The notes below the pieces were generated by a model. It saw only the letters and a list, made by a program, of their open reading frames with translations. It was not told the origin of the DNA and searched no databases. A stretch of DNA of 26,098 nt from positions 1 to 26,098 of IMG/VR virus record IMGVR_UViG_3300031951_001068; one strand, written 5' to 3'. Made by a program: the position numbers and the translations under genes. This document shows, piece by piece, positions 8,503 to 25,914 of this stretch. The stretch is from a virus. The number at the start of each line of letters is the position of its first letter. The stretch's first letter is position 1.

Positions 8503-10566
8503 TCACTTACTGGTAGCTCTATAAACTCCGTCCCACTTGAGTGGTTCATCAGTCTTCAAATCATATATTCTTTGTTCCATCATAGCATAGTATGCATTGA
8601 GCTCTTCGTTCCAGCATCGCTTGAGATCTTTTATAAGATTCAGAGCTTCATCCCATTTGCCTTGACGATAGAGATCGAGGAACTTCTTATGTAGTAATTC
8701 TCCAGCGCCGTCAGAAACATCGAGAACGGTGTAGATTCTTGCTGGTTCTGTCTTACCTTTGACAGCAATCAGATCGAGTTCGACTATTTGGTATACAGAC
8801 CCCACCAATTCGGCCGTTTGTGGCCCGACGATGAGTTTAACTCCATAAGGCTTGGTTTGACCTTCCAGACGAGCAGCCAAATTAACGCCGTCGCCCAGAC
8901 AAGTATAATCGAAACGCTGATCAGAGCCCATATTACCCACAACCACAGTGGCAGTGTTAATACCAAGACCCATACCGAAAGCTGGAATGCCTTCTCCTTT
9001 AATCTCTTCATTGAAAATCTCCAAATCTTTTAACATTTGAAAGGCAGTTCGAACAGCATCTAATGCATGCTTATTGTTATCGAGCGGAGCATTCCAGAAT
9101 GCCATTTGCGCATCACCAATATACTTATCAAGTGTGCCGTTGTTTTCGAGAATCGCCCGTGTCATGACTGTCATGTAACGATTCATAATAGAAGTCAAGC
9201 CTTGGACATCATCTCCGTAGTGTTCAGAGATTGTAGTAAATCCGCGAACGTCTGTAAACATGATCGAAAGATCACGTGATTCTCCGCCAAGCTTCAAGAG
9301 TTCTGGTTGTCTTTGTAGTCTTGCTACCAGATCTGGGCTCAGATATGTGCCGAACTGTTTCTTAATCTGTTGCTTCTGTAAATACTCTGAGATAAATTTC
9401 ACTGTATAGATATGAATGTAGATCAGCAGCGCGCCTAATACGTTGAAGCTGATATCCATCATTATACCATAAGTGCCGAATAAGTACACCGGTAAATACA
9501 CATAGGCAGCAATCAATGCTGCGATATATACATACGAGAACTTAAATCGAGAGATAACTACCAATGCCAGGAAAAGAAGAAGAAACCCGCCAAGATCTAC
9601 AAGCGGAATCCAATTCGGAATCGACACAGAGTCCCCATTTATCAGAGTCTCAAGAATACTCGCTTGGAGTTGATGGGGATGTTGGGCACCTGAAGGAGTC
9701 GCTACAGGGTTACTTAGCCCAGCTGCAGTCACTCCAACAATCGCGATTTTACCTGCCAGATCGGGCAAAGGACCCGCACCAATTTCGTATGATTGAAATT
9801 GGTAGTTCGGATTGATGAAGGTTCTTCCATACTCGTCTGTTTTAATTGTTTCAAAAGAAGGAATTCGTAATGCTTCAACCCCAGTCTGATTTATCTTGGC
9901 TTGATACGAAGAGTCTCCTGCAGCTACACGCAGCATCTCTAGAGCAAATGCGGGATAGTATTCGCCTGATGACTCAGATAGAAGAGGAACTCGCCTTACA
10001 ACCCCATCAGTCTCGGGTAGGGTTGACGTTATCCCAACACCGGCTGCGGCTTCTTGAAGAACTGAGACATTACTTAGAACGCATGGGTATTGAGGAAGAA
10101 ATTCAGTTGCTTCTCCATCGCCGATTACGGCAACGCCTGTCTTCCGAATTGTCGCGCTTGCCCGTGAACAAGAGTCGCTTACCGTCTGGCTAAGAACGAC
10201 AGGATATTGCTTTAGCGAATCCGCAAGATCTCGATCAGTCCCCAACCGATCACGCTCAGGGTAAAGTATAGTGCTACCAACAAGAGCAGCCCCTCGGCCA
10301 TAGACCTCAGAATGAATGTCAGCGTAGACTTTACGCGGGAACGGATATTGGCCATATTTCTCAATCGCTTTCTCGCCAATATTTATCAAAACGATCTGTT
10401 CTGACTTCTTTGGTTCAGAAATCATAAGGTAGTCGTAAAACTTGAGGCGAGTGGCTTCGACGAGATATGGATCCGAGATCTTTACTGTCATAAGAAGAGC
10501 GAACGTAAAGATCGCCAGCCATGGGCTCAGAAGAATCGATTTAATTTTTTGTGTAGCTGTACCCAC
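8503..10566 (-). CDS. CHASE2-domain membrane adenylate cyclase (class III)
   Basis: 687 residues. An N-terminal helix (about 12-30), a CHASE2 extracytoplasmic sensor domain (about 35-315, with YDYLM, PFPRKVYADI, GVVRRVPLL), three membrane helices (about 319-338, 343-363, 366-390), then a class III cyclase domain (about 428-612). Metal Asps D439 (FTDVRGF) and D485 (GDAQMAFW), K481 and T555 (adenine selectors), N562 and R566 are all present, so it should be an active adenylate rather than guanylate cyclase. A 60-residue helical tail follows. The start is GTG (10564-10566) with AGGA 7 bases before, overlapping the upstream gene by 26 bases. CHASE2 cyclases are common in bacteria, often beside FecR genes as here, but very unexpected in a phage. 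Confidence 0.93.
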   Translation of the reverse strand: MGTATQKIKSILLSPWLAIFTFALLMTVKISDPYLVEATRLKFYDYLMISEPKKSEQIVLINIGEKAIEKYGQYPFPRKVYADIHSEVYGRGAALVGSTILYPERDRLGTDRDLADSLKQYPVVLSQTVSDSCSRASATIRKTGVAVIGDGEATEFLPQYPCVLSNVSVLQEAAAGVGITSTLPETDGVVRRVPLLSESSGEYYPAFALEMLRVAAGDSSYQAKINQTGVEALRIPSFETIKTDEYGRTFINPNYQFQSYEIGAGPLPDLAGKIAIVGVTAAGLSNPVATPSGAQHPHQLQASILETLINGDSVSIPNWIPLVDLGGFLLLFLALVVISRFKFSYVYIAALIAAYVYLPVYLFGTYGIMMDISFNVLGALLIYIHIYTVKFISEYLQKQQIKKQFGTYLSPDLVARLQRQPELLKLGGESRDLSIMFTDVRGFTTISEHYGDDVQGLTSIMNRYMTVMTRAILENNGTLDKYIGDAQMAFWNAPLDNNKHALDAVRTAFQMLKDLEIFNEEIKGEGIPAFGMGLGINTATVVVGNMGSDQRFDYTCLGDGVNLAARLEGQTKPYGVKLIVGPQTAELVGSVYQIVELDLIAVKGKTEPARIYTVLDVSDGAGELLHKKFLDLYRQGKWDEALNLIKDLKRCWNEELNAYYAMMEQRIYDLKTDEPLKWDGVYRATSK

Positions 10567-12001
10567 TGCAAGGTCCTGTCGCGCATGTTATTGTCATTGA
10601 AGCGGAGTCAGTAGCACTCGCAGCAGTTTGCGATACAGTGACTCCAATTCCTGGATTATTTATTATCAGTTGAAACAGCTTTTGTGAAGCACCAGATTGA
10701 GTGATGGTTGCATTCAATCCGCCATAAGGTGCGCTGATATCTAAGAAGTGATTACCTGTGCCTTGTTGCAAAGTAGTAATTACATTCGAGTTACCTAAGA
10801 TATTGAAGAACGCATACTTTCCACCGGCATCTTTCTGCTGAGCAGTCAGTTGATTTCCCGTTCCATTCATTACCAGCTCTGTATACTTACCATTATTTTG
10901 TTGTGTAAGAGATACGGTGTTATTATTACCAGTGACAGACACTTCGGCAAGATTGTTTCCGAGAACGGTAGTAGCAGTGCCTTGATTAATAGTAATATTG
11001 TTGTTGCTACCATTAATTAACATGTCTTGAGAACCGTTAACACCTCTGATGGCATTAAACCTTGAGAACTGTTCGACGTTGACGGTATTATTATCGCCGA
11101 TATTTTGAATGTAAATCGAGTTACTTGTAATAGCATTCGTCTGGCCAAGCTTAATAGTCTGATTAGTCGTAATCGATACAGCAGGATATGCAGGCGCTGG
11201 AGGTGGAGGTGGAGGTGTGGTCGGTGCAGACGATCCTTCGTTTGGAGCTATAGGATTAAACGTGGTTCCATTCAGAGTTGTTGTTCCTTGCAACTGGTCG
11301 ATGAACAAGATAGGAGAAAGAGCTGTGTCACCAAGATTGAATGACGAGAAGCCGAGCGTATAGTTGCCATCAGTCGGTACAGTAAACACGGCGAGTTGCC
11401 AACCAGTGGCACCATAAGATCCTACTGAATAGTTACCAGTTCCTTGATTGGTAAATCCGAGCAGAGCATAATTCTGTGTCTGACCGTTTAAAGTTGGAAT
11501 TCCTGGTCCATTCGTCAACGTAATCATCGAGCCGTCGTTGTAAGGAACATAGTCGGTCGACAGATATTGCCAGCCAAACGTGTATGTAATTCCGGCTTGT
11601 AGGAATACGGTTCTACTCACAGACGAAGCATTCGTAGGATACATTGACCCATTCGAATAGATCGTATTTCGAATGGTTGTAATATCGGTTGAGCTTAGAC
11701 CAAGCGTAGTCATGGCTGTATTGAATTGAGGAGAACTTCCTCCTGCTTGGACCGATATCATATAAGAACCATAAGGTGTAATTGTCCAGCACTTACCTCC
11801 ACCTGGGCAATAGTTTTGCATGCCAGTTGTCACTTGAACTCCCTGACCAGAATCTGACCAACTCGTTCGAAGTGTGGTGGATCCGTTAGAAACTGTCCAA
11901 CCTGCATAAGTTCCATCTTCGAAACCATAGTTCGAAGGCGTCTGCGCATTTAACTGTACGCTAAACGTTAACAGTAGTAGTGTTAAGATCCATCTGATCA
12001 T
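10541..12001 (-). CDS. Secreted protein: globular domain, Pro-rich linker, curlin-like repeats
   Basis: 486 residues. Signal peptide 1-19 (cut near LNA/QT). Residues 22-245 look like a beta-sandwich, possibly lectin or carbohydrate-binding (NYGFEDGTYAGWTVSNGS start, FIDQLQ end); a Cys pair lies at C65 and C71. A proline-rich linker (about 259-275) joins a C-terminal region of about 200 residues with repeated G-x-x-N-x(5)-Q units (GDNNTVNVEQ, GSNNNITINQG, GNNNTVSLTQQ, GTGNQLTAQQ, LNATITQSG), the curlin pattern of CsgA/CsgB. It would leave through the Sec system and CsgG and could act as nucleator or adhesin. Its ATG overlaps the FecR stop (ATGA). Confidence 0.8.
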   Translation of the reverse strand: MIRWILTLLLLTFSVQLNAQTPSNYGFEDGTYAGWTVSNGSTTLRTSWSDSGQGVQVTTGMQNYCPGGGKCWTITPYGSYMISVQAGGSSPQFNTAMTTLGLSSTDITTIRNTIYSNGSMYPTNASSVSRTVFLQAGITYTFGWQYLSTDYVPYNDGSMITLTNGPGIPTLNGQTQNYALLGFTNQGTGNYSVGSYGATGWQLAVFTVPTDGNYTLGFSSFNLGDTALSPILFIDQLQGTTTLNGTTFNPIAPNEGSSAPTTPPPPPPAPAYPAVSITTNQTIKLGQTNAITSNSIYIQNIGDNNTVNVEQFSRFNAIRGVNGSQDMLINGSNNNITINQGTATTVLGNNLAEVSVTGNNNTVSLTQQNNGKYTELVMNGTGNQLTAQQKDAGGKYAFFNILGNSNVITTLQQGTGNHFLDISAPYGGLNATITQSGASQKLFQLIINNPGIGVTVSQTAASATDSASMTITCATGPCSGYSYTKN

Positions 12002-13134
12002 CTTGCACCTGACTCTTGTATTACGGTGATATTTCCTTGTGGTCTACCTGTACCTGTCGTAGTCCATTTATCATCCATAAAATTGTAGGCGTCGACGATT
12101 CCATTCTGTACAGAAACGAGTTGAATTTCTGTGTCTTTTGGTAACCATACGATCACAGATTGATTCTTATCCTCTGAGATTCTCGAGTATACCCATCCGA
12201 CTTGCAGTTGTTTCTTGAAAGTAGGAGATACGTTTGTGTAGATAGTTTCTGTCGGTCTTGCACCAGAATTATACTCTGCATAGATATTTTGAAGTTCATC
12301 TTGAGTAGGCAAACGAAGAGTAGCAACTGCGACTTCTTCTACGCCGTCTCCACCGGTATTTGGATCTTGGTTGTCATCAGATGCGGCTTTTGCAGGATTG
12401 ACAAATTTCTTGAGTGATTCGCGAGCAGCGTTGATGAGTGATTGTCCATCGTCTGTTTCGAGAGGAGAGATCTGAATATTGTTGTCCATACCCTTCATTG
12501 CAGGGTTAATTACGACCGGAGGAGCAGGAGGAGCGTAAGAATTCTCGACCATCGTTGCTTGGAATGGTTGAGTCAGAGTCACGATGCCGGCAGCAGTGAT
12601 AACGTCGATAGCACCTGAAGGGCACTCGAAGTTGATCTTTGTAATATCTTTATCGTTATAACATTCTGGAACGAGGACAACAGTCGATCTGCCAGCCTCA
12701 TCGACTGACATGACAAAGTCTGTGCCTCTTACGGCAATCGTTGCGGTGGGTGTCCGTATACCAACACCGCGAGCGTTGCCATGAGCAATGCCACCAGAAG
12801 TATATCTCGCAGTTCCCAAAGCCAGCTTAAGACCAAGCTTGCCTTTGCTCTTATTGTTTCCATCATAGACGAAATCATCGATGACTAACCTTGAATTTTG
12901 TGTGATGTTAACTGTGGTGGCATCGACGAATCGAATCTTAAATCTACCCTGAGAATTGGTAGAGACGGTATCGTTCTTTTCGATACTCGAGCCTTTAGCA
13001 GCAGGTGCGACCTTTGCACCACGCTTCACGGAACCTCCGCCCTGAAACTCTGATATCGATCCCACGCCTGCAAAGGCGGGAACCGATATCAGAAGTAAGA
13101 GATTAATGGCCAGTCTTGATATTAAACGTACCAT
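11998..13134 (-). CDS. Secreted FecR-domain protein
   Basis: 378 residues with a signal peptide (about 1-22, ending VPAFA). Residues 23-145 hold a FecR domain: VSTNSQGRFKIRFVDATTV, an ALGTARYTSG strand and the closing TPTATIAVRGTDF. Unlike classical FecR it has no cytoplasmic anti-sigma part, and no sigma factor gene is nearby, so it belongs to the secreted FecR type that often neighbours CHASE2 cyclases. The middle has a PPAPPVV linker and a low-complexity acidic stretch; the C terminus is unassigned. It overlaps the curlin-like gene by 32 bases with no clear ribosome site, suggesting coupled translation. Probable role: periplasmic or surface scaffold or sensor partner (inferred). Confidence 0.85.
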   Translation of the reverse strand: MVRLISRLAINLLLLISVPAFAGVGSISEFQGGGSVKRGAKVAPAAKGSSIEKNDTVSTNSQGRFKIRFVDATTVNITQNSRLVIDDFVYDGNNKSKGKLGLKLALGTARYTSGGIAHGNARGVGIRTPTATIAVRGTDFVMSVDEAGRSTVVLVPECYNDKDITKINFECPSGAIDVITAAGIVTLTQPFQATMVENSYAPPAPPVVINPAMKGMDNNIQISPLETDDGQSLINAARESLKKFVNPAKAASDDNQDPNTGGDGVEEVAVATLRLPTQDELQNIYAEYNSGARPTETIYTNVSPTFKKQLQVGWVYSRISEDKNQSVIVWLPKDTEIQLVSVQNGIVDAYNFMDDKWTTTGTGRPQGNITVIQESGAR

Positions 13135-13876
13135 TTGAACCCGTCGACTTAAGATTGATTACGGTTTCCGAAGCTCCGTATTGCTGGGTTGTAATGGTGT
13201 TCAGTGTACCTGTAAGATTCACATAGAGCGAATGTCCAAATGTTCCGCCGAGACCTGTTTGTGTCACGTCGAAGTCATTGTAGTCACCTGTGACAAGAAC
13301 AGTCTGCGTAGCATTTGGTGACAGCGCGTCGATATTGAACGTGTTGTTATCACCAGTGATATCCATCGAGTTACGGATATTTGCACCCGAACCATGGAAC
13401 ACAAGAGAGTTTGAATCGCCAGTAAAGCGAGCGTTCATATCGAACTGATTACAGATCGCGTCAGATACTAAAGTACCGCAACGAATGTCTGCAGTATTTA
13501 GGTCGCCGATTTGGCGTATTGTAGCTGTGGCAACTCCTGTGCCTCCAGTTGCGGATACGATTCCCATGTAGAGTTGGTTTCCGTTACCTGTTTGTACAGC
13601 GATGACACTTTGATTATCGCCGCGTAGGTAGATAGGATCACCAGAATCGCCAATAATGTTGGCAGTGCCTGTCTGAACAATGTTAACATCAACGTTTCCG
13701 CCTTCTTGATCAATATACACCTTGTTGGTGGTTGCAACTGCGGCTGCAGTCACTTCATTCGGAGAGGTAGTTACGATTGTTGGTGGTGTTGGGGCTGTTG
13801 GTAGCACTGTTTGTGCAACCGCAGATGTTCCATAAAGAAGAGCAGCGCCAACGAATAAAGCTTTACTTAACTTCAT
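13103..13876 (-). CDS. Secreted curlin-repeat protein (CsgA/CsgB-like)
   Basis: 257 residues. Signal peptide 1-22 (AVAQ cut region), then a Pro/Thr/Ala-rich N-terminal segment and imperfect repeats centred on N and Q spaced as in curlin: GNVDVNIVQTG, DNQSVIAVQTGNGN, GVATATIRQIGDLN, GDNNTFNIDA, GDYNDFDVTQTGLGG, GTLNTITTQQYGAS. A likely disulphide pair (IRCGTLVSDAICNQF) is unusual for curlin. ATG 13876 was chosen over 13924 because AGGA lies 9 bases upstream and the signal peptide starts there; it overlaps the csgG stop by 14 bases. Position just after csgG supports export as the amyloid subunit. Confidence 0.85.
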   Translation of the reverse strand: MKLSKALFVGAALLYGTSAVAQTVLPTAPTPPTIVTTSPNEVTAAAVATTNKVYIDQEGGNVDVNIVQTGTANIIGDSGDPIYLRGDNQSVIAVQTGNGNQLYMGIVSATGGTGVATATIRQIGDLNTADIRCGTLVSDAICNQFDMNARFTGDSNSLVFHGSGANIRNSMDITGDNNTFNIDALSPNATQTVLVTGDYNDFDVTQTGLGGTFGHSLYVNLTGTLNTITTQQYGASETVINLKSTGSNGTFNIKTGH

Positions 13877-14687
13877 TTGTTGTTTCCTTTTGCTTAAATC
13901 TCCATAGACCTTTACGTTCACCATCCTTGATCAATTCCACAACGGCCGTTTCTATGGCTGAACGGATCGCATAACTACCAGCTTCATTCGATGTTTGTTG
14001 TCCATCAAATTCAAAAGCTTTTGTTGCCATGTCAAAGAATTTAAATGCTGTCACTCCCTCGGATGTAGAGAGCAGATTCTTCTCAACAGTGACAGAGGTG
14101 AGGACTTCACCTGTCTGTACTGAGACGAGTCGCATACTAATAGTAACTTGATCTTCTGCGTACTGCTGATAAGGACCAATTCCAAGGAATCGTGCACCGT
14201 TACCACCAGTCTTGGTATTTGAACTATAGTCAATAATACCGCCTTCAAGAATGATACCTGCAACCATGAGAGGAGGAAGCGGTTCTGCACCTTCTCCGAG
14301 TTGCTGTTCTCTCATCTGTCTGACAAGCTGACGTTCTTTAATAAGAGAATCGATACCTACGCGTTCGACTGGACGAAACCACTTGCCATCGCCAGTATCT
14401 GCCAATGTTTTGATAACATAAGCATCGGCGCCTTGAGTTACCGCCGTCGAGAAGCTGGCTTGAGTAGCAGAAGGTTTACGTTGTCCTGTTCTATCAGTGA
14501 ACGAGTAGATAGCGATAGGAATCACTTGTCCATCGAGCTCTGGTAGATTTTTAAACAACTTAGGATTTGCAAATCTTTCTACCTCAGCATCTTCTCGTAG
14601 AAGATATGACTGATTCAGATGAGGATGCATTCCGCCTATGCAACCAGATGTTGCAAGAAGTATTGGAAGCAAGAGTAGTTTTTTCAT
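13863..14687 (-). CDS. csgG: CsgG curli secretion channel lipoprotein
   Basis: 274 residues, close to bacterial CsgG. A lipoprotein signal peptide ends in LATSGC (lipidated C16). The family's hallmarks follow in order: IAIYSFTDRTGQRKP, FSTAVTQGADAYVIKTL, WFRPVERVGIDSLIKERQLVRQ, PPLMVAGIILEGGIIDYSSNTKTGG, GARFLGIGPYQQYAEDQVTISMR, VQTGEVLTSVTVEKNLLS, and a C-terminal helix with IETAVVELIKDGERKGLW. CsgG forms a nine-subunit outer-membrane pore for unfolded amyloid subunits (type VIII secretion). All expected regions are intact, so it is probably functional. AAGGA sits 7 bases before ATG. No csgE is seen in this window. Confidence 0.96.
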   Translation of the reverse strand: MKKLLLLPILLATSGCIGGMHPHLNQSYLLREDAEVERFANPKLFKNLPELDGQVIPIAIYSFTDRTGQRKPSATQASFSTAVTQGADAYVIKTLADTGDGKWFRPVERVGIDSLIKERQLVRQMREQQLGEGAEPLPPLMVAGIILEGGIIDYSSNTKTGGNGARFLGIGPYQQYAEDQVTISMRLVSVQTGEVLTSVTVEKNLLSTSEGVTAFKFFDMATKAFEFDGQQTSNEAGSYAIRSAIETAVVELIKDGERKGLWRFKQKETTNEVK

Positions 14688-14696
14688 GGCTTTTCC

Positions 14697-15143
14697 TTAG
14701 AACCCAAAGGTTGCGATAGGAACAGTCACGACTGTCGTATTACCAGCTTTGTCGACAACCGTCAACGTCACTGATGTACCAGTTTTTACATAGCTAATCG
14801 TATTACCATCGAGGGTGAATATGCCCTGTTGAGCAGAACCTTCAGCAAAAAGATTGTTTGAAAGCTGCGTCGCCAGCTGAGCATATACCTGAGATGTAAA
14901 CAGTGCCATAAACTTGGCAAGCGGAGTGTTAGCTGCTTCGGATCTCGCAAGAGCTAGCTTTGCGGCTTCGGCATCTTTGATTGCTTGCTCACGAGAACGC
15001 TCTTGCGCATCGATTGCTTGCACATGTTGTGACCATCCATATCCATTGAAGGAAGGACTTTTAAACTGTTGTACAATCGGATCAGCTTTTGCCGGCGCGC
15101 TGAAGCATATCAATAACGTCAATATTGCTAGTTTCTTCGACAC
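14697..15143 (-). CDS. csgF: CsgF curli assembly factor
   Basis: 148 residues beginning with a Sec signal peptide (KKLAILTLLICFSAPAKA). The mature N terminus (DPIVQQFKSPSFNGYGW) matches the CsgF segment that inserts into the CsgG pore. The ending (GIFTLDGNTISYVKTGTSVTLTVVD...TVVTVPIATFGF) matches the CsgF C-terminal beta region. An Ala/Glu-rich helix lies between. Start taken as GTG 15143, with AGGA 8 bases upstream, because the signal peptide begins there; the in-frame TTG at 15209 would add 22 very basic residues before it. It lies 9 bases before csgG, so pore and cap are co-expressed. Confidence 0.9.
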   Translation of the reverse strand: MSKKLAILTLLICFSAPAKADPIVQQFKSPSFNGYGWSQHVQAIDAQERSREQAIKDAEAAKLALARSEAANTPLAKFMALFTSQVYAQLATQLSNNLFAEGSAQQGIFTLDGNTISYVKTGTSVTLTVVDKAGNTTVVTVPIATFGF

Positions 15144-15205
15144 TTTCTTCTTCCTTTTTCTTTTCAGAAGAAAGACTAAACTCAAGCGAGAAGATCTTAA
15201 TGATT

Positions 15206-15469
15206 TCAATCTTTAGATTTATATTCATCGTGATCTTCCTTTATCTGCAATACTACACTCACCTTCTGTTGTAACCGAATCATATCATTATCAAGCATGC
15301 GAACACGATCAATGAGAGCAATCAAAATAGCGTTTGTCTCACCAATCAATGGCATTAATTTATCTGTAACGAACTTGTAGATAAACCATACAAAATATCC
15401 CATACCCACCGAGGAGACAATAGGAAAACCATATTGTTTTACAAGTTCAGCAACCGTATTTAAATCCAT
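15206..15469 (-). CDS. Holin-like small membrane protein B
   Basis: 87 residues: a short N-terminal helix (MDLNTVAELVKQYG), one long hydrophobic segment (about 15-38, FPIVSSVGMGYFVWFIYKFV), then a heptad-like helical tail (IGETNAILIALIDRVRMLDNDMIRLQQKVSVVLQIK) and a charged end. It is a paralogue of the gene just upstream, sharing the xYGFPI / DVGFPI start and the D-R-V-R-M-x-x-x-D-x-I-R motif. The layout recalls BhlA/UviB-type holin-like phage proteins, but that is a fold-level resemblance only. Its ATG overlaps the upstream stop as TAATG. Could be holin/antiholin or an inner-membrane part of the curli export machine. Confidence 0.8.
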   Translation of the reverse strand: MDLNTVAELVKQYGFPIVSSVGMGYFVWFIYKFVTDKLMPLIGETNAILIALIDRVRMLDNDMIRLQQKVSVVLQIKEDHDEYKSKD

Positions 15470-15769: not shown

Positions 15770-16783
15770 CTACTTCGTAACTGAGGCGCTACACTTCGTA
15801 CAAATGTTATTATATGCTCTGTCGATGGTCTCGACGTGCTTATCACTCAACCACATCTCGGAGAGTTCTTGTTCAAGAACATTACCAAAAATATAGTCGA
15901 AGTTATAGTCATTGCAACAGAGAATGGCATCTCCACTCGAGTTGATACTCAGCCACTCATAGTTGCGATCACCCCAGTTTTGACAACCTACGACAGTACG
16001 ATTCTTCATACGATCTTTCATGTAGTCTTCTTCAGTAATATACTGAGCGATAAGACCGGTACGATCAATCAGATCAGACTTTTCTATATCAAACTTAGGG
16101 AACAGTTTCGTGGCAATATCTACTTGCCTCTGATGCTCTCCAGTCTGTAAGTCGAGATCGATGCCAAGCTCTTCAAACTTCGGGCCTTTCTTCAAAGATC
16201 CTGTCTTAAATGAGAGTTCGTTGACACCGTTGACGATAAGCTTCACTCTTCCTGCAAGTTTGCGAGTTACGGCATGATTATGCAGGTTTTCAAGATTCTC
16301 CATCATATCATCGAATCGCTTGGCAGGAAATCCTGATCTCTTCGACCAGACTTCTGCATTTTCATATGCAGGAATGTTCAGTGCGATTTCTTGAATGACA
16401 GAAGGAGTATACTTGTTGATGATATCGAGTTTATCAGGAGTCAGATTGACACCGTTGCTCAGAATGAAAGTCTTCAGACCATAGTGCTTTGCCAGTTCGA
16501 GTAGCTTCTCGAAGTCTTTGTACAGCAGCACTTCACTGTAGTGTGTGGTCAGAAAGAGATCAAAATCTGGACTGACGACTCCGTTTGGTGTCTCTCGTTC
16601 GACAATAAGTTTTCGAAAGATCTTCTCGACGTCCTCAATCGGCATCTGCTTCATACCAGATTCTGGTTGAGGAATGTACCTGACAGGACAATACCAGCAC
16701 TTGGCATTACAGAACCCAAAAAGGTCGATAGCCAAGCGCTGGATTTGATATGCTTTTAACCTAGAACGAATAAATGTCGACAA
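15770..16783 (-). CDS. Radical SAM protein with SPASM-type C terminus
   Basis: 337 residues. The N-terminal iron-sulphur motif is C25-x3-C29-x2-C32 (CNAKCWYC). A TIM-barrel core follows (DLFLTTHYSEVLLY, LKTFILSNGVNL). The C terminus has SPASM-like cysteines: CQNWGDRNYEWLSI, AILCCNDYNFDYIFGNV and ICTKCSA, which bind extra clusters. Such enzymes modify peptides or small molecules, and marine T4-like phages carry relatives of unknown role. The start is TTG (16781-16783) with GAGG 6 bases upstream; no ATG fits. A GATAAATA sequence at 16813-16820 may be a weaker late promoter. Confidence 0.9.
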   Translation of the reverse strand: MSTFIRSRLKAYQIQRLAIDLFGFCNAKCWYCPVRYIPQPESGMKQMPIEDVEKIFRKLIVERETPNGVVSPDFDLFLTTHYSEVLLYKDFEKLLELAKHYGLKTFILSNGVNLTPDKLDIINKYTPSVIQEIALNIPAYENAEVWSKRSGFPAKRFDDMMENLENLHNHAVTRKLAGRVKLIVNGVNELSFKTGSLKKGPKFEELGIDLDLQTGEHQRQVDIATKLFPKFDIEKSDLIDRTGLIAQYITEEDYMKDRMKNRTVVGCQNWGDRNYEWLSINSSGDAILCCNDYNFDYIFGNVLEQELSEMWLSDKHVETIDRAYNNICTKCSASVTK

Positions 16784-18069: not shown

Positions 18070-18229
18070 TTTTCTTTGGATACCTCTGATAATATGATTC
18101 TTCGATATTTTCTCCGAAGAAATCGATATCGAGTTCGTTGAGTTCCTTGACAACACGATAGCCGAGGTAGGAAAGGATTCCTACGACTGCTACGCCTGCA
18201 ACTCCAGCAACGACCTTCTTCTTATCCAT
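18056..18229 (-). CDS. 57-residue single-span membrane protein
   Basis: Unrecognised. MDKKK then a glycine/valine-rich membrane helix (VVAGVAGVAVVGILSYLGYRVV) and a soluble acidic tail (ELDIDFFGENIEESYYQRY). The Lys-rich start suggests N-in topology, though this is uncertain. Its ATG overlaps the peroxiredoxin stop by 8 bases and its stop overlaps the next gene, so it is well embedded in the operon. Confidence 0.75.
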   Translation of the reverse strand: MDKKKVVAGVAGVAVVGILSYLGYRVVKELNELDIDFFGENIEESYYQRYPKKNGDE

Positions 18230-18812
18230 TTTCTTTCAGCCAATTTAAGATGTTTTCTGGAGTAGTTTCATCATAAGGATCTGTCTCGCAGTTATCTTCA
18301 AAACCTGGTTCGACGAACCACTTCTCGATCTTACCGTTATTGACGATACAAGCATAACGCCATGAACGTTCACCGAAGCCAAGGTTTTCCTTGTAGACGT
18401 TCATCTGCATATCACGAGTAAACTTAGCAGATCCGTCAGGAATCATCTTTACCTTCTTAATCTTCTGTTGCTTCGCCCAACAATTCATCACGAATGCATC
18501 GTTGACCGATACACAGACGATGTCGTCAATGCCAAGATCCTTGAAAGCCTTGAAGTTTTCTTCAAAACCAGGAAGCTGATACGTCGAACATGTAGGCGTG
18601 AAAGCACCAGGAAGTGAGAAGAGTACTACACGCTTCTTCGCGAAGTAGTCGAACGTTGTCTTATCTTCCCAACGATACGGATTCGATCCTTCGATAGAAT
18701 CGTCGCGGACACGAGTTTTAAATACGATATTTGGCACTACTTCTGGCAGTTCGCTAAACTCGCCATCTTTAAACTTGTGCCAATAACGTTTAACAGCAAT
18801 TGTTTCTGCCAT
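18222..18812 (-). CDS. Peroxiredoxin, Prx5-like
   Basis: 196 residues. Reduces hydroperoxides with the peroxidatic C75 in PGAFTPTCS; supporting Arg is in GERSWRYA (R149/R152). A second C175 in EPGFEDNCETDP could be the resolving residue. The N-terminal RVRDDSI...NPYRWEDKTT and the VCVSVNDAFVMNCWAK segments closely follow the Prx5/AhpE-type group common in marine and alphaproteobacteria. ATG 18812 was chosen over 18848 because AAGGA sits 8 bases before it, overlapping the preceding stop. It may protect phage replication from peroxide stress or act as a chaperone (inferred). Confidence 0.93.
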   Translation of the reverse strand: MAETIAVKRYWHKFKDGEFSELPEVVPNIVFKTRVRDDSIEGSNPYRWEDKTTFDYFAKKRVVLFSLPGAFTPTCSTYQLPGFEENFKAFKDLGIDDIVCVSVNDAFVMNCWAKQQKIKKVKMIPDGSAKFTRDMQMNVYKENLGFGERSWRYACIVNNGKIEKWFVEPGFEDNCETDPYDETTPENILNWLKENG

Positions 18813-18822
18813 AATATATTCC

Positions 18823-18972
18823 TTACCAATGATGGATTGCATTTGCAATCAGAAAAATGTTTGCTATGACGGATTGTACAATAATCAACGTCCGGATCCA
18901 AGCGACTTTATCAGACTCGCGATCACATGAAGTTGCTTTTTCGCCTAAAGCTTTTGCCCAAATACGCCACAT
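18823..18972 (-). CDS. 49-residue membrane protein (MWRIWAKALGEKA type)
   Basis: Starts MWRIWAKALGEKATSCDRESDKV.. (first half polar, charged) and ends with a membrane span (VAWIRTLIIVQSVIANIFLIANAI) and HHW. From memory, very similar small proteins with the MWRxWAKALGEKA start occur in many marine T4-like phages, but no function is known. The start has a weak GGA site; the gene ends 10 bases before the peroxiredoxin ATG and holds its ribosome site. Confidence 0.8.
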   Translation of the reverse strand: MWRIWAKALGEKATSCDRESDKVAWIRTLIIVQSVIANIFLIANAIHHW

Positions 18973-18984
18973 AACTAAATTCCA

Positions 18985-19265
18985 TGAATAAAGGCGAAGT
19001 GGGAGGATTCAGTTGTACCTCCAAGGCCCAGTCAATTACTATCTGTAATCTCAGCCTACGACTCGTTTGCCGGTTGAGCGGGAGACCAATCCCCGAGTCT
19101 ACTTTATCCCCACTGACAAGGGGATTATTCAGTCACACTTCTTACCAGGTCCGTCGACCCAGATATCTATTTGCTCTGTGGGATCCGCCCCCACGTACCA
19201 GCCCTCAATGGCCGGATCTTAGTCTAATTGCACGGACTACCGTGTCCCAGATCAAGAGCAAAACT
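18985..19265 (-). other. Gene-free, hairpin-rich stretch downstream of the beta-barrel gene
   Basis: No convincing gene was found in about 297 bases between the 49-residue gene and the outer-membrane protein. At least five short perfect stems can be seen: GGAGG/CCTCC (19001-19021), TCCCC/GGGGA (19107-19124), GGTC/GACC (19148-19159), GTGGG/CCCAC (19178-19195) and CACGG/CCGTG (19231-19244). No U tract follows any of them. It may be a structured 3' UTR or a separate RNA. Strand is assumed from the neighbouring genes. Confidence 0.4.
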
Positions 19266-19269
19266 TATA

Positions 19270-19746
19270 TTAGAACCTTACACCGAGTCCTACAAGACCA
19301 CCATGCTGGCCAACGCCACCATCAAAATCGGTGTAACGGTATTCGATCTTACCATAGACTGGACCATAAAGGTTGGCTTCAACGCCACCGCCTACGCGGA
19401 GACCTTCAAGTTCAGCAGTCGTGGTTTGCTTCCAGTTGGCATAGCCAACCTTGCCATATACAAGTGCCTTATCGGCAACTACGAAACCGAGACGAGCTGC
19501 GGCACCAATGTTGCGACGATCAAAGACATTGTCAAGCGTAGCTTCAACGCCAACAACGACGTTCTTGTAAAGCTTTGCATCAAGACCAACACCAGCACCA
19601 TATGCTACGTCAGTCGGATCAACTCCACCAGTAACATCATCTAAACCTGCAGTAACTTCTGCGCGTACACCAGCAAAGTCATTTGCCATAGCTGGAGTAG
19701 CTACAAACGCTGCCGCAACAGCAAGAGGAGCGAGATACTTTTTCAT
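19270..19746 (-). CDS. Outer-membrane beta-barrel protein (opacity/OmpA-barrel type)
   Basis: 158 residues. Signal peptide 1-21 (cut after PAMA), then an eight-strand-like barrel: GVRAEVTAGLDDV, VAYGAGVGLDAKL, VVVGVEATLDNV, GAAARLGFVV, ALVYGKVGYANWK, LRVGGGVEANL, VYGKIEYRYTDFD, and a C-terminal GLVGLGVRF. The terminal Phe is the usual outer-membrane sorting signal. It resembles alphaproteobacterial opacity-type porins, which hints at the host. A mild ribosome site (AAAAGGTAA) precedes ATG. A roughly 170-base leader and tRNA-Asn lie upstream, with a late promoter at 20000-20007. Possible roles: masking phage receptors or altering the surface (inferred). Confidence 0.88.
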   Translation of the reverse strand: MKKYLAPLAVAAAFVATPAMANDFAGVRAEVTAGLDDVTGGVDPTDVAYGAGVGLDAKLYKNVVVGVEATLDNVFDRRNIGAAARLGFVVADKALVYGKVGYANWKQTTTAELEGLRVGGGVEANLYGPVYGKIEYRYTDFDGGVGQHGGLVGLGVRF

Positions 19747-19915
19747 ACATTTACCTTTTATTGTTGTTGAGGTCGGCAGTTTAAGACATACCGAGGTCTA
19801 TTGAATGTAATGGCTACTGAGGTGTCGACACGCTACAGTCGGTAATTTCGCTCTTTACGTTCCTATCTTCCCCCAAATCGCTTGGTCGCCACAGGAACTT
19901 CCATCACATTCAAAC
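19747..19915 (-). other. Long leader between tRNA-Asn and the beta-barrel gene
   Basis: About 169 bases without a credible gene. On the minus strand it contains GGAAGTTCC and GGTCG/CGACC-like short inverted repeats and then the AAAAGGTAA ribosome site. If transcription comes from 20000-20007, this would be the 5' UTR left after tRNA processing. Confidence 0.4.
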
Positions 19916-19990
19916 TGGCTCCTCAAGATGGATTCGAACCACCGACCAGGCGATTAACAGTCGCCGGCTCTACCGCTGAGCTATTGAGGA
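19916..19990 (-). tRNA. tRNA-Asn(GUU)
   Basis: Acceptor TCCTCAA/TTGAGGA, anticodon arm GGCGA-CTGTTAA-TCGCC with GUU at the centre, T loop TTCGAAT, G73 and encoded CCA. Reads AAC/AAU. Confidence 0.95.
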
Positions 19991-24663: not shown

Positions 24664-25821
24664 TCAAACCACTTTAATTCTTCCTGCTGCTTCACGAGCT
24701 TCTTCTATACTGTGAGCCAGTACAACACCCATGCGTCGATTTTTACGACAGTATGGCTTACCGAAAACACGAACCTCAACACCTGGTGTTTTTAGAGCAT
24801 CTTCAATACCTTCATAACGCGGTTTTGTATACGTATCTTTTTCAGCAAGAATAACAGCTGATGCACCAAAACCACCGGCAATCTTAATATTTGGAATAGG
24901 AAGACCAAGAATTGCTCTGAGGTGAAGATCGAACTGTGAGATATTCTGACTAATCATAGTTACCATACCAGTATCGTGTGGACGTGGTGATAGTTCTGAG
25001 AAGTAAACAACGTCACCCTTGACAAAGAACTCAACCCCAAACAAACCGGCACCACCCAAGTCATCCGTAATCGTCTTAGCCATAGCCTGCGTTACACCGT
25101 ACGTTGCGATATTTTTAAATGGCTCCGGCTGCCATGAATATTGATAGTCTCCGTTTACCTGAACGTGTCCGATAGGATTACAGAAGAGAGTCGGGCCATC
25201 TTTCTGCTTAACAGTCAGAAGAGTGATCTCATAATCAAAATTAATAAACTCTTCGATGATAACTCGTTGACGATTACCGCGCATATTTTCACATGCATAA
25301 TGCCATGCAGAACGTACTTGAAGTTCGATATCAACATCAGTGTCACAATCTACTACGGATTGTCCTTTACCCGATGATGACATAACTGGCTTGATAACAG
25401 CTTTCTTTGATGCTATCTTATTATAAGCGTCGACAAGTTCTTGCTCTGATTCAGCATAAGCAAATGCAGCTACCTTCAACCCAAGCTCATGAGCACGATC
25501 GCGAATAGCATCGCGATTCATTGTAAGGTTAACAGCTCGTGCGGACGGAACAACCTGAGTACCAGCGGCCTCTACTCCATAGAGTACATCGGTAGCAATT
25601 GCTTCAATCTCAGGCACAATAATATCTGGGCAGTAAATGTCAATCATGGTTTCAAGTCTACGAGCGTCGAGCATATCGAACACTTCATACGTATCTGCTA
25701 CCTGCATTGCTGGTGCATTCCGATAAGAGTCACACGCAATAACATAGTGACCCATACGCTTGGCTGAAATTACAAACTCTTTGCCCAGTTCACCCGAACC
25801 AAGTAACATAATTACTTTCAT
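24664..25821 (-). CDS. purT: Formate-dependent phosphoribosylglycinamide formyltransferase PurT
   Basis: 385 residues, near E. coli PurT length (392). PurT makes formyl-GAR from GAR, formate and ATP, step three of purine synthesis without folate. An ATP-grasp fold is clear: MLLGSGELGKEF start, PEIEAIATDVL, VVPSARAVNLTMNR, a KPVMSSSGKGQS glycine loop, and the GLFGVEFFVKGDVVYFSELSPRPHDTGMVT metal-binding segment, then FDLHLRAILGLPIP. All hallmark blocks are present. ATG 25821 was chosen over 25845 because AAAGGA lies 7 bases upstream. Phages often carry purN, purM or purL; purT is unusual. tRNA-Cys is just upstream in the same direction. Confidence 0.95.
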   Translation of the reverse strand: MKVIMLLGSGELGKEFVISAKRMGHYVIACDSYRNAPAMQVADTYEVFDMLDARRLETMIDIYCPDIIVPEIEAIATDVLYGVEAAGTQVVPSARAVNLTMNRDAIRDRAHELGLKVAAFAYAESEQELVDAYNKIASKKAVIKPVMSSSGKGQSVVDCDTDVDIELQVRSAWHYACENMRGNRQRVIIEEFINFDYEITLLTVKQKDGPTLFCNPIGHVQVNGDYQYSWQPEPFKNIATYGVTQAMAKTITDDLGGAGLFGVEFFVKGDVVYFSELSPRPHDTGMVTMISQNISQFDLHLRAILGLPIPNIKIAGGFGASAVILAEKDTYTKPRYEGIEDALKTPGVEVRVFGKPYCRKNRRMGVVLAHSIEEAREAAGRIKVV

Positions 25822-25836
25822 ATTGTATCCTTTAAA

Positions 25837-25914
25837 TGGAGTCACGGGCGGGATTCGAACCCGCGGCTTTCAGGTTTTGCAGACCTGTGCATTGGACCAC
25901 TCTGCCACCGTGAC
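25837..25914 (-). tRNA. tRNA-Cys(GCA)
   Basis: Acceptor GTCACGG/CCGTGAC, anticodon stem CAGGT/ACCTG around CTGCAAA (GCA), U73 as usual for cysteine, encoded CCA. Confidence 0.95.

Follow-up and report, generated by a model that had tools for sequence, protein, structure and literature searches.

Small outer-membrane β-barrels are encoded by many phage genomes and, to our knowledge, few of them have a known job. Lom of phage lambda is a phage-borne barrel of the Ail-Lom-OmpX group. Phage curli (type VIII secretion, T8SS) clusters form a second body of work that bears on the locus described here. They are known from pelagiphages and a methylophage (PMC7029224, PMC9599517, PMC9004378), and the uses proposed for them in the available text of these papers are sibling capture, superinfection protection, import and lysis timing (PMC7029224, PMC9004378, PMC9599517). 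The freshwater SAR11 myophages of PMC7029224 were reported, in the text available, to be without a curli operon. The available text of the three papers names no outer-membrane barrel beside CsgG, and the words 'porin' and 'barrel' are absent from the main text of PMC9599517. The literature covered by our searches, most subscription journals lying outside it, contained no report of the present barrel in phage curli clusters or of its leader pseudoknot.

We analysed a 26 kb virus record (IMG/VR IMGVR_UViG_3300031951_001068, positions 1 to 26,098; the whole of this stretch is called the window) that encodes a small barrel (Table 1). Relatives are cited by our locus numbers. Phage barrels are already known as a kind; new, within the searches made, are the setting of this one, its mosaic hairpin and its leader.

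The barrel gene, its product and its relatives

The barrel ORF encodes 158 amino acids from an ATG start, with AAAAGG ahead of it that reads by eye as a ribosome-binding site; plus-strand ORFs of 185 and 138 amino acids overlap it. Its N-terminus, also by eye, is a type I signal peptide of the n/h/AxA kind (MKKYLAPLAVAAAFVATPAMA, with ND following the boundary), in which P18, A19 and A21 are invariant across an alignment of 32 rows (the window protein and 31 relatives). The C-terminus reads ...LGVRF, and a terminal Phe is present in 83 of 84 viral barrel contigs. The protein matches Pfam PF13505 (OMP_b-brl) over residues 9–158 with 47.4 bits (cut-off 28.7), and all 32 alignment rows, window included, match this family at E 0.01. 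The Pfam Opacity family (PF02462) gave no match to the window barrel up to E 0.1 and none to any of the 32 rows at E 0.01; a distant relative, L090, reached E 0.0025 but only 18.3 bits against a cut-off of 21. The similarity to alphaproteobacterial opacity porins claimed in the initial annotation is supported for the bacterial group, since the named bacterial relatives were alphaproteobacterial in six of six cases in a pattern scan of genome contigs (which used only six short peptide patterns, all from one sequence), and not for the Opacity family of Pfam.

An AlphaFold2 model, run with the 32-row family alignment, has eight strands (residues 26–36, 47–60, 63–72, 78–90, 94–106, 112–127, 130–141 and 145–157), with a mean pLDDT of 81.1 and a pTM of 0.72. 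The predicted turns T1–T3 span 2–3 residues and the loops L1–L4 span 10, 5, 5 and 3 residues, respectively. In barrels of such topology L1–L4 face outward, as they would here. The predicted arrangement, eight antiparallel strands, is that of an OmpA/OmpX-type fold. With the predicted model as query, Foldseek placed OmpX, NspA, OmpA and Ail within the first nine solved-structure matches. The top VIA-align matches were a Thermus outer-membrane protein (3dzm, Z 17.5), Legionella porin III (9nh2, Z 17.0) and OmpA (1qjp, Z 16.8, rmsd 1.9, 120 aligned), which we count as tied, with NspA (Z 16.3), OmpX (13.5), Ail (12.6) and Opa60 (11.2) in lower rows. Phage proteins named outer-membrane barrels were among the best matches in a viral structure library, many such proteins being listed. 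Variability along the protein peaks in loop L3 (mean entropy 2.03), whose length differs by up to about 15 residues; loop 2 is the least variable loop (0.40), and loops 1 and 2 are conserved together with the strands.

A first scan found barrel relatives at 66 viral loci, and an alignment-based scan found 97, of which 80 were kept. The dN/dS values of the window gene against L004, L010, L011, L013 and L014 were 0.066, 0.067, 0.124, 0.130 and 0.058, respectively, and six other compared pairs lay between 0.05 and 0.20; the barrel gene is under purifying selection. Because 66 viral loci encode relatives and dN/dS is 0.058–0.130, the barrel is not a chance ORF. Family membership, model, fold matches and selection agree, and the assignment as a phage-encoded eight-stranded outer-membrane barrel is well supported; the protein would be expected to insert into the membrane. 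The initial annotation had proposed such a barrel from a signal peptide, eight strands and a terminal Phe, all of which are present, in the sequence or the model, within exactly this minus-strand ORF, for which it had given no strand; it had named the failure to predict a barrel as one outcome that would speak against it, and an eight-stranded barrel was predicted.

The protein phylogeny suggested for finding the donor host comprised 46 phage and 28 bacterial rows (rows longer than 330 amino acids were dropped; the bacterial rows L068 and L212 are the same gene). All 46 phage barrels group together in a single clade, separate from the 28 bacterial rows (UFboot 100, SH-aLRT 99), and because they do so no recent donor is visible. 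The closest bacterial row, from the alphaproteobacterium Sphingomonas sediminicola, is a long branch that meets another long branch where Sphingomonas joins the phages. Barrel matches occurred in 72 of 398 sampled Pseudomonadota genomes. A tblastn search of 50,697 phage records with the window barrel gave no match at E 0.01, and a search of the phage records with the distant relative L090 gave one.

The barrel family spans two distant phage lineages. The T4-type DNA polymerase encoded by the window shares about 50% identity with cyanophage polymerases; the DNA polymerases of the second lineage (for example L029, L031, L032, L038, L047–L051 and L057) have only about 24–34% identity to it. For L057, the one member of that lineage compared with jumbo phages, the nearest polymerases are those of Phosso of Sinorhizobium (47.6%) and Atu_ph07 of Agrobacterium (44.8%). 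The hint at a host group that had been seen in the barrel is weak: the separate phage clade counts against it, and the nearest named bacterial proteins and the L057 polymerase both point to Alphaproteobacteria. The donor can be named only as perhaps alphaproteobacterial.

Neighbouring elements and the curli cluster

The barrel gene stands between tRNA genes and a peroxiredoxin gene (Table 1). A PurT-like ATP-grasp enzyme is encoded within the tRNA cluster of the window (24664–25845, minus strand), and GOLLD RNAs occur in the tRNA clusters of two other barrel phages (L022:7056-7518 and L080:6275-6746), each with a tRNA match inside. The manA RNA downstream of the barrel belongs to a class of riboswitch candidates of marine samples and cyanophages, the motif of which is described in PMC2864571; the string 'peroxi' is absent from the main text of that paper. 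Further manA RNAs lie at L010:9568-9736, L011:9545-9716, L012:1687-1858, L018:8814-8983 and L080:8434-8605. The RNA precedes a peroxiredoxin gene in the window, L010 and L018, and the barrel in L011.

Table 1. Features of the window in and around the barrel gene, from the highest positions to the lowest.
Feature	Position	Strand	Evidence or remark
tRNA-Asn(GTT), next upstream of the barrel	19916..19990	minus	ARAGORN; last of 24 tRNA genes in the direction of transcription
Candidate H-type pseudoknot, barrel 5' leader	19773..19799	minus	P1 AGAC/GTCT, P2 TCGGTA/TGCCGA; ends 26 nt before ATG
Outer-membrane 8-stranded β-barrel gene (predicted fold)	19270..19746	minus (reads 19746 to 19270)	ORF, Pfam OMP_b-brl, AlphaFold2, fold matches, purifying selection
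Signal peptide, codons 1-21 (MKKYLAPLAVAAAFVATPAMA)	19684..19746	minus	Read from sequence
manA RNA (Rfam RF01745), between the barrel and peroxiredoxin genes	18992..19161	minus	60.7 bits (gathering 55.2), E 7.4e-14
Peroxiredoxin gene, next downstream of the barrel	18222..18848	minus	Pfam Redoxin E 2.5e-25; phrog_2281 peroxyredoxin E 2.5e-65
CsgF gene	14697..15209	minus, as barrel	Pfam CsgF E 3.1e-17
CsgG gene	13863..14687	minus	Pfam CsgG E 2.8e-52; relatives in HTVC008M and Melnitz phages
Curlin-repeat protein gene	13103..13924	minus	Pfam Curlin_rpt 26.6 bits (cut-off 20.7)
FecR-domain protein gene	11998..13134	minus	Pfam FecR E 1.4e-12
Second, weaker curlin-repeat gene	10541..12001	minus	Curlin_rpt 16.2 bits, below cut-off 20.7
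CHASE2-adenylate/guanylate cyclase gene	8503..10566	minus	CHASE2 E 2e-34; Guanylate_cyc E 3.6e-16

Positions 8503–15209 of the window (minus strand) make up a phage curli (T8SS) cluster with genes for CsgF, CsgG, two curlin-like proteins, a FecR-domain protein and a CHASE2-cyclase; a radical SAM/SPASM protein gene adjoins it (15770–16783, minus strand). The barrel and the cluster share a strand and are ~4 kb apart, the cluster being downstream, with the peroxiredoxin and other genes between. In the second lineage, where the contig is long enough, the order is CsgF, CsgG, curlin, FecR, CHASE2-cyclase and then the barrel, and the cyclase is the last gene of the curli cluster wherever the cluster is visible. 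A cyclase relative is the nearest gene upstream of the barrel in 30 of 84 distinct contigs, on the same strand and with a gap of 70–98 nt (28 of 74 among barrel contigs with at least 400 nt upstream). The 30 barrels so preceded represent 12 distinct sequences over their C-terminal 130 residues.

The barrel might accordingly be an accessory part of the curli (type VIII secretion) system that helps to anchor or present curlin fibres, or compensates for the stress that the CsgG pore puts on the envelope. Besides the frequent cyclase neighbour, the presence of CsgG on the same contig in 15 of the 29 barrel contigs searched argues for such a role, as do the other exported proteins that stand behind the cyclase (in L195, L196, L185 and L137). 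It is weakened by the 14 of 29 barrel contigs, possibly fragments and including ones of 90, 77 and 52 kb, on which no CsgG was found, and by the distance between barrel and CsgF in the window. In the search from the other side, the fetched stretch included a barrel scoring above 100 bits at 9 of 36 CsgG loci and at 19 of 80 cyclase loci. No barrel match came from HTVC008M or Melnitz-3, both of them complete records. Of 42 curli or cyclase records selected for a whole-contig search, 8 matched a barrel, two of them weakly, a ratio that is no frequency because the 42 records omitted most contigs already known to carry both. The barrel is not a constant member of the phage curli cluster and its link with curli is loose; we regard an accessory curli function as unlikely.

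Other genes were seen in the same place. Directly behind the cyclase, L195 (12128–12694) and L196 (1354–1959) encode porin-like proteins of 188 and 201 amino acids, with Porin_4 below cut-off, and L185 (8957–11236) encodes a TonB receptor, on a presumed phage contig. A Gcw_chp protein follows the cyclase in L137 (4882–5604) with one small gene between, a protein without a Pfam match follows it in L160 (12184–12744), and a phosphate-binding-like protein of the PBP superfamily does so in L187. CHASE2-cyclase relatives also occur on contigs of jumbo-phage size, L162 (258,859 bases), L186 (360,683) and L201 (328,068), and L186 also has a barrel immediately after that gene. To judge from the other contigs, the curli cluster may end in a slot for envelope genes.

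Candidate leader pseudoknot and mosaicism of the barrel gene

Many barrel leaders can form a covarying pseudoknot. In a scan with a fixed canonical H-type geometry, 17 of 37 leaders (representatives picked by hand) scored at least 20. In 100 rounds of dinucleotide shuffles this number averaged 1.77 and never exceeded 5, and among 419 control leaders, which belong to other predicted genes at the same loci, 41 scored as high. The Fisher p value for barrel versus control leaders, 1.4e-7, overstates independence since the leaders are related. The remaining 20 of 37 scored under 20, and the canonical pseudoknot is absent in 15 of 37. A looser scan placed 63 of 301 control leaders at 23 or above, with some barrel leaders wrongly counted as controls. 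The control matches of the fixed-geometry scan include tRNA-like and terminator-like stretches.

Base pairs were counted in a hand-set group of 20 leaders, of which 19 head the barrel and one, from L022, heads the gene behind it, with helices set by hand and positions counted from the helix end rather than from an alignment. P2 occurs as 19 distinct strands among the 20 leaders, with four or five pair types at each of the four positions nearest P1. In the 19 barrel leaders it ends 23–29 nt before the ATG. In L078 P2 is incompletely paired, and in L063 and L081 P1 has 3 pairs. Because the L022 leader heads the gene after the barrel, the pseudoknot is not strictly tied to the barrel. Rfam gave no match at 19773–19799 of the window up to E 1, and none at the barrel leaders of L064, L079, L017, L012, L013, L020 and L087 up to E 0.5.

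The leader may regulate the gene behind it, and could act through protection of the mRNA at its 5' end, as a ligand-sensing switch or through translational control. The mRNA of ompA is protected at its 5' end, and T4 gene 32 has a leader pseudoknot. A translational operator of the gp32 type was not supported: the gp32 leaders of the relatives L237 and L238 showed no pseudoknot by eye, a negative that is thin because gp32 was found in only 2 of 13 contigs. Nor is the conservation of the leader likely to be owed to a T4-type late promoter, since the TATAAATA-like stretch that separates P1 from P2 in L014, L020 and L076 is retained neither in the window nor in the other leader class. A sigma-70 promoter of the barrel's own, plausible by eye in several leaders, was rejected as evidence after comparison with shuffles: 9 of 12 consensus positions were reached in 8 of 37 leaders, where single-base shuffles gave 7.4 on average and 13 at most, and 10 of 12 in 3 leaders, where the shuffles averaged 1.5. 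A promoter may still be present, since some of the hexamers picked by eye fail the rule of the scan.

Judged from DNA identities, the barrel gene is mosaic, comprising an inter-lineage chimaera and an exchanged β5-L3-β6 hairpin. The chimaera is in L018, which has window-lineage neighbours on both sides and 84% DNA identity over 5.5 kb downstream. Its barrel gene is 90–93% identical to that of the window over the first ~120 nt and 50–68% over the middle, where L047, a member of the second lineage, matches it at 75–82% identity. The last ~90 nt are not clearly closer to either (L047 62–68%, window 62–72%), and because this end is not nearer L047 the mosaic is not one of two clean blocks. The exchanged hairpin is seen in L037 and L027, which are 96–100% identical in the first and last gene windows and 62–64% identical across the β5-L3-β6 hairpin; over this hairpin L037 is 80–88% identical to L033. 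A second, milder mid-gene stretch of L037 and L027 (78–93% DNA identity) is mostly silent, with one residue changed, and outside the hairpin the two proteins differ by one residue. We take the hairpin exchange to suggest selection for variety at one exposed hairpin. Since L027 and L037 are nearly identical and carry a swapped hairpin, they make the exclusion hypothesis developed below directly testable.

Proposed role and comparison with known systems

In our reading the gene is an accessory one of a T4-like phage and encodes a small barrel of the OmpX/OmpA type, which would be expressed during infection, exported by Sec and folded by Bam into the outer membrane of the host with its four loops outside. 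There it would alter the surface of the infected cell for the phage, and its likeliest use would be to hide or block a receptor or a DNA-entry step against competing phages. We favour this surface-remodelling barrel, likeliest for receptor masking or superinfection exclusion, tentatively and at somewhat less than an even chance. The superinfection block or envelope change that the initial annotation had put forward is plausible, and fits the swapping of a surface hairpin between phages. Several points count against parts of the proposal. Loops 1 and 2 are conserved, which suits a docking or structural face better than a shield under rapid evolution; the hairpin exchange could come from pressures other than phage competition, or from drift; and about half of the leaders show no pseudoknot or an unclear one.

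We rank exclusion of rival phages first, a curli-module helper second and simple stabilisation of the envelope third. As the last of these, the barrel would be a general envelope helper that stabilises the outer membrane or occupies the Bam or stress pathway and has no anti-phage role. The fold class, the conservation of loops 1 and 2 and the strands, and the named phage barrels among the structure matches are consistent with this, and the swap of a surface hairpin, which suggests selection on the exposed face, speaks against it; we consider it less likely again than the curli helper. A solute porin that feeds the infected cell is very improbable: family names such as porin and the PBP-superfamily protein behind the cyclase in L187 would suit it, but there is no sign of a channel here, and the interior of eight-stranded barrels is filled or very narrow. 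Least probable of all is a virion part or particle-borne host-range factor, for which we found no supporting point, while the signal peptide and the C-terminal barrel signal predict export and the window barrel lies away from recognised structural genes.

Returning to the surface-remodelling barrel, a wider form of the proposal is that an exchangeable 'surface cassette' is common to T4-like and jumbo-type phages: an OmpX-type barrel with its own covarying H-type pseudoknot, which would control translation or mRNA life, slotting behind curli clusters or other genes, with an exposed hairpin that is swapped in competition for the infected cell. We hold this version to be doubtful, less probable than the surface-remodelling role taken by itself, though more probable than a curli accessory. 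The barrel family offers three handles: a recurring place behind curli genes, a natural hairpin swap and a candidate regulatory RNA.

Among described families the window barrel is closest to OMP_b-brl (PF13505), with which it shares a score above cut-off, the signal peptide, eight predicted strands and the terminal Phe; it differs in being phage-borne, the tree places it in a separate clade, and its modelled loops 2 and 4 are very short. To the cyanophage outer-membrane-like barrels of PF24653 (Phage_OMP) and phrog_417 it has a weak match over its first two thirds (E 0.0019 and 0.0016, respectively), but at 18.9 bits against a cut-off of 27 it falls outside PF24653, which 10 of the 32 alignment rows match at E 0.01 or below. 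With the Ail-Lom-OmpX group the likeness is one of fold only: the fold class agrees in Ail and OmpX, the members of the group that were compared, and the Ail/Lom family gave no match to the window barrel up to E 0.1. Like lambda Lom, the barrel would give the phage a means of altering the cell surface, but its setting is T4-like rather than a lambdoid prophage. The curli cluster of Melnitz-3, as annotated, has the CsgF-CsgG-curlin-FecR-curlin-cyclase order of the window, and that of HTVC008M has the same order but for two unnamed genes between curlin and cyclase; the window differs from both in carrying, on the same strand as its curli cluster, a gene for an outer-membrane barrel.
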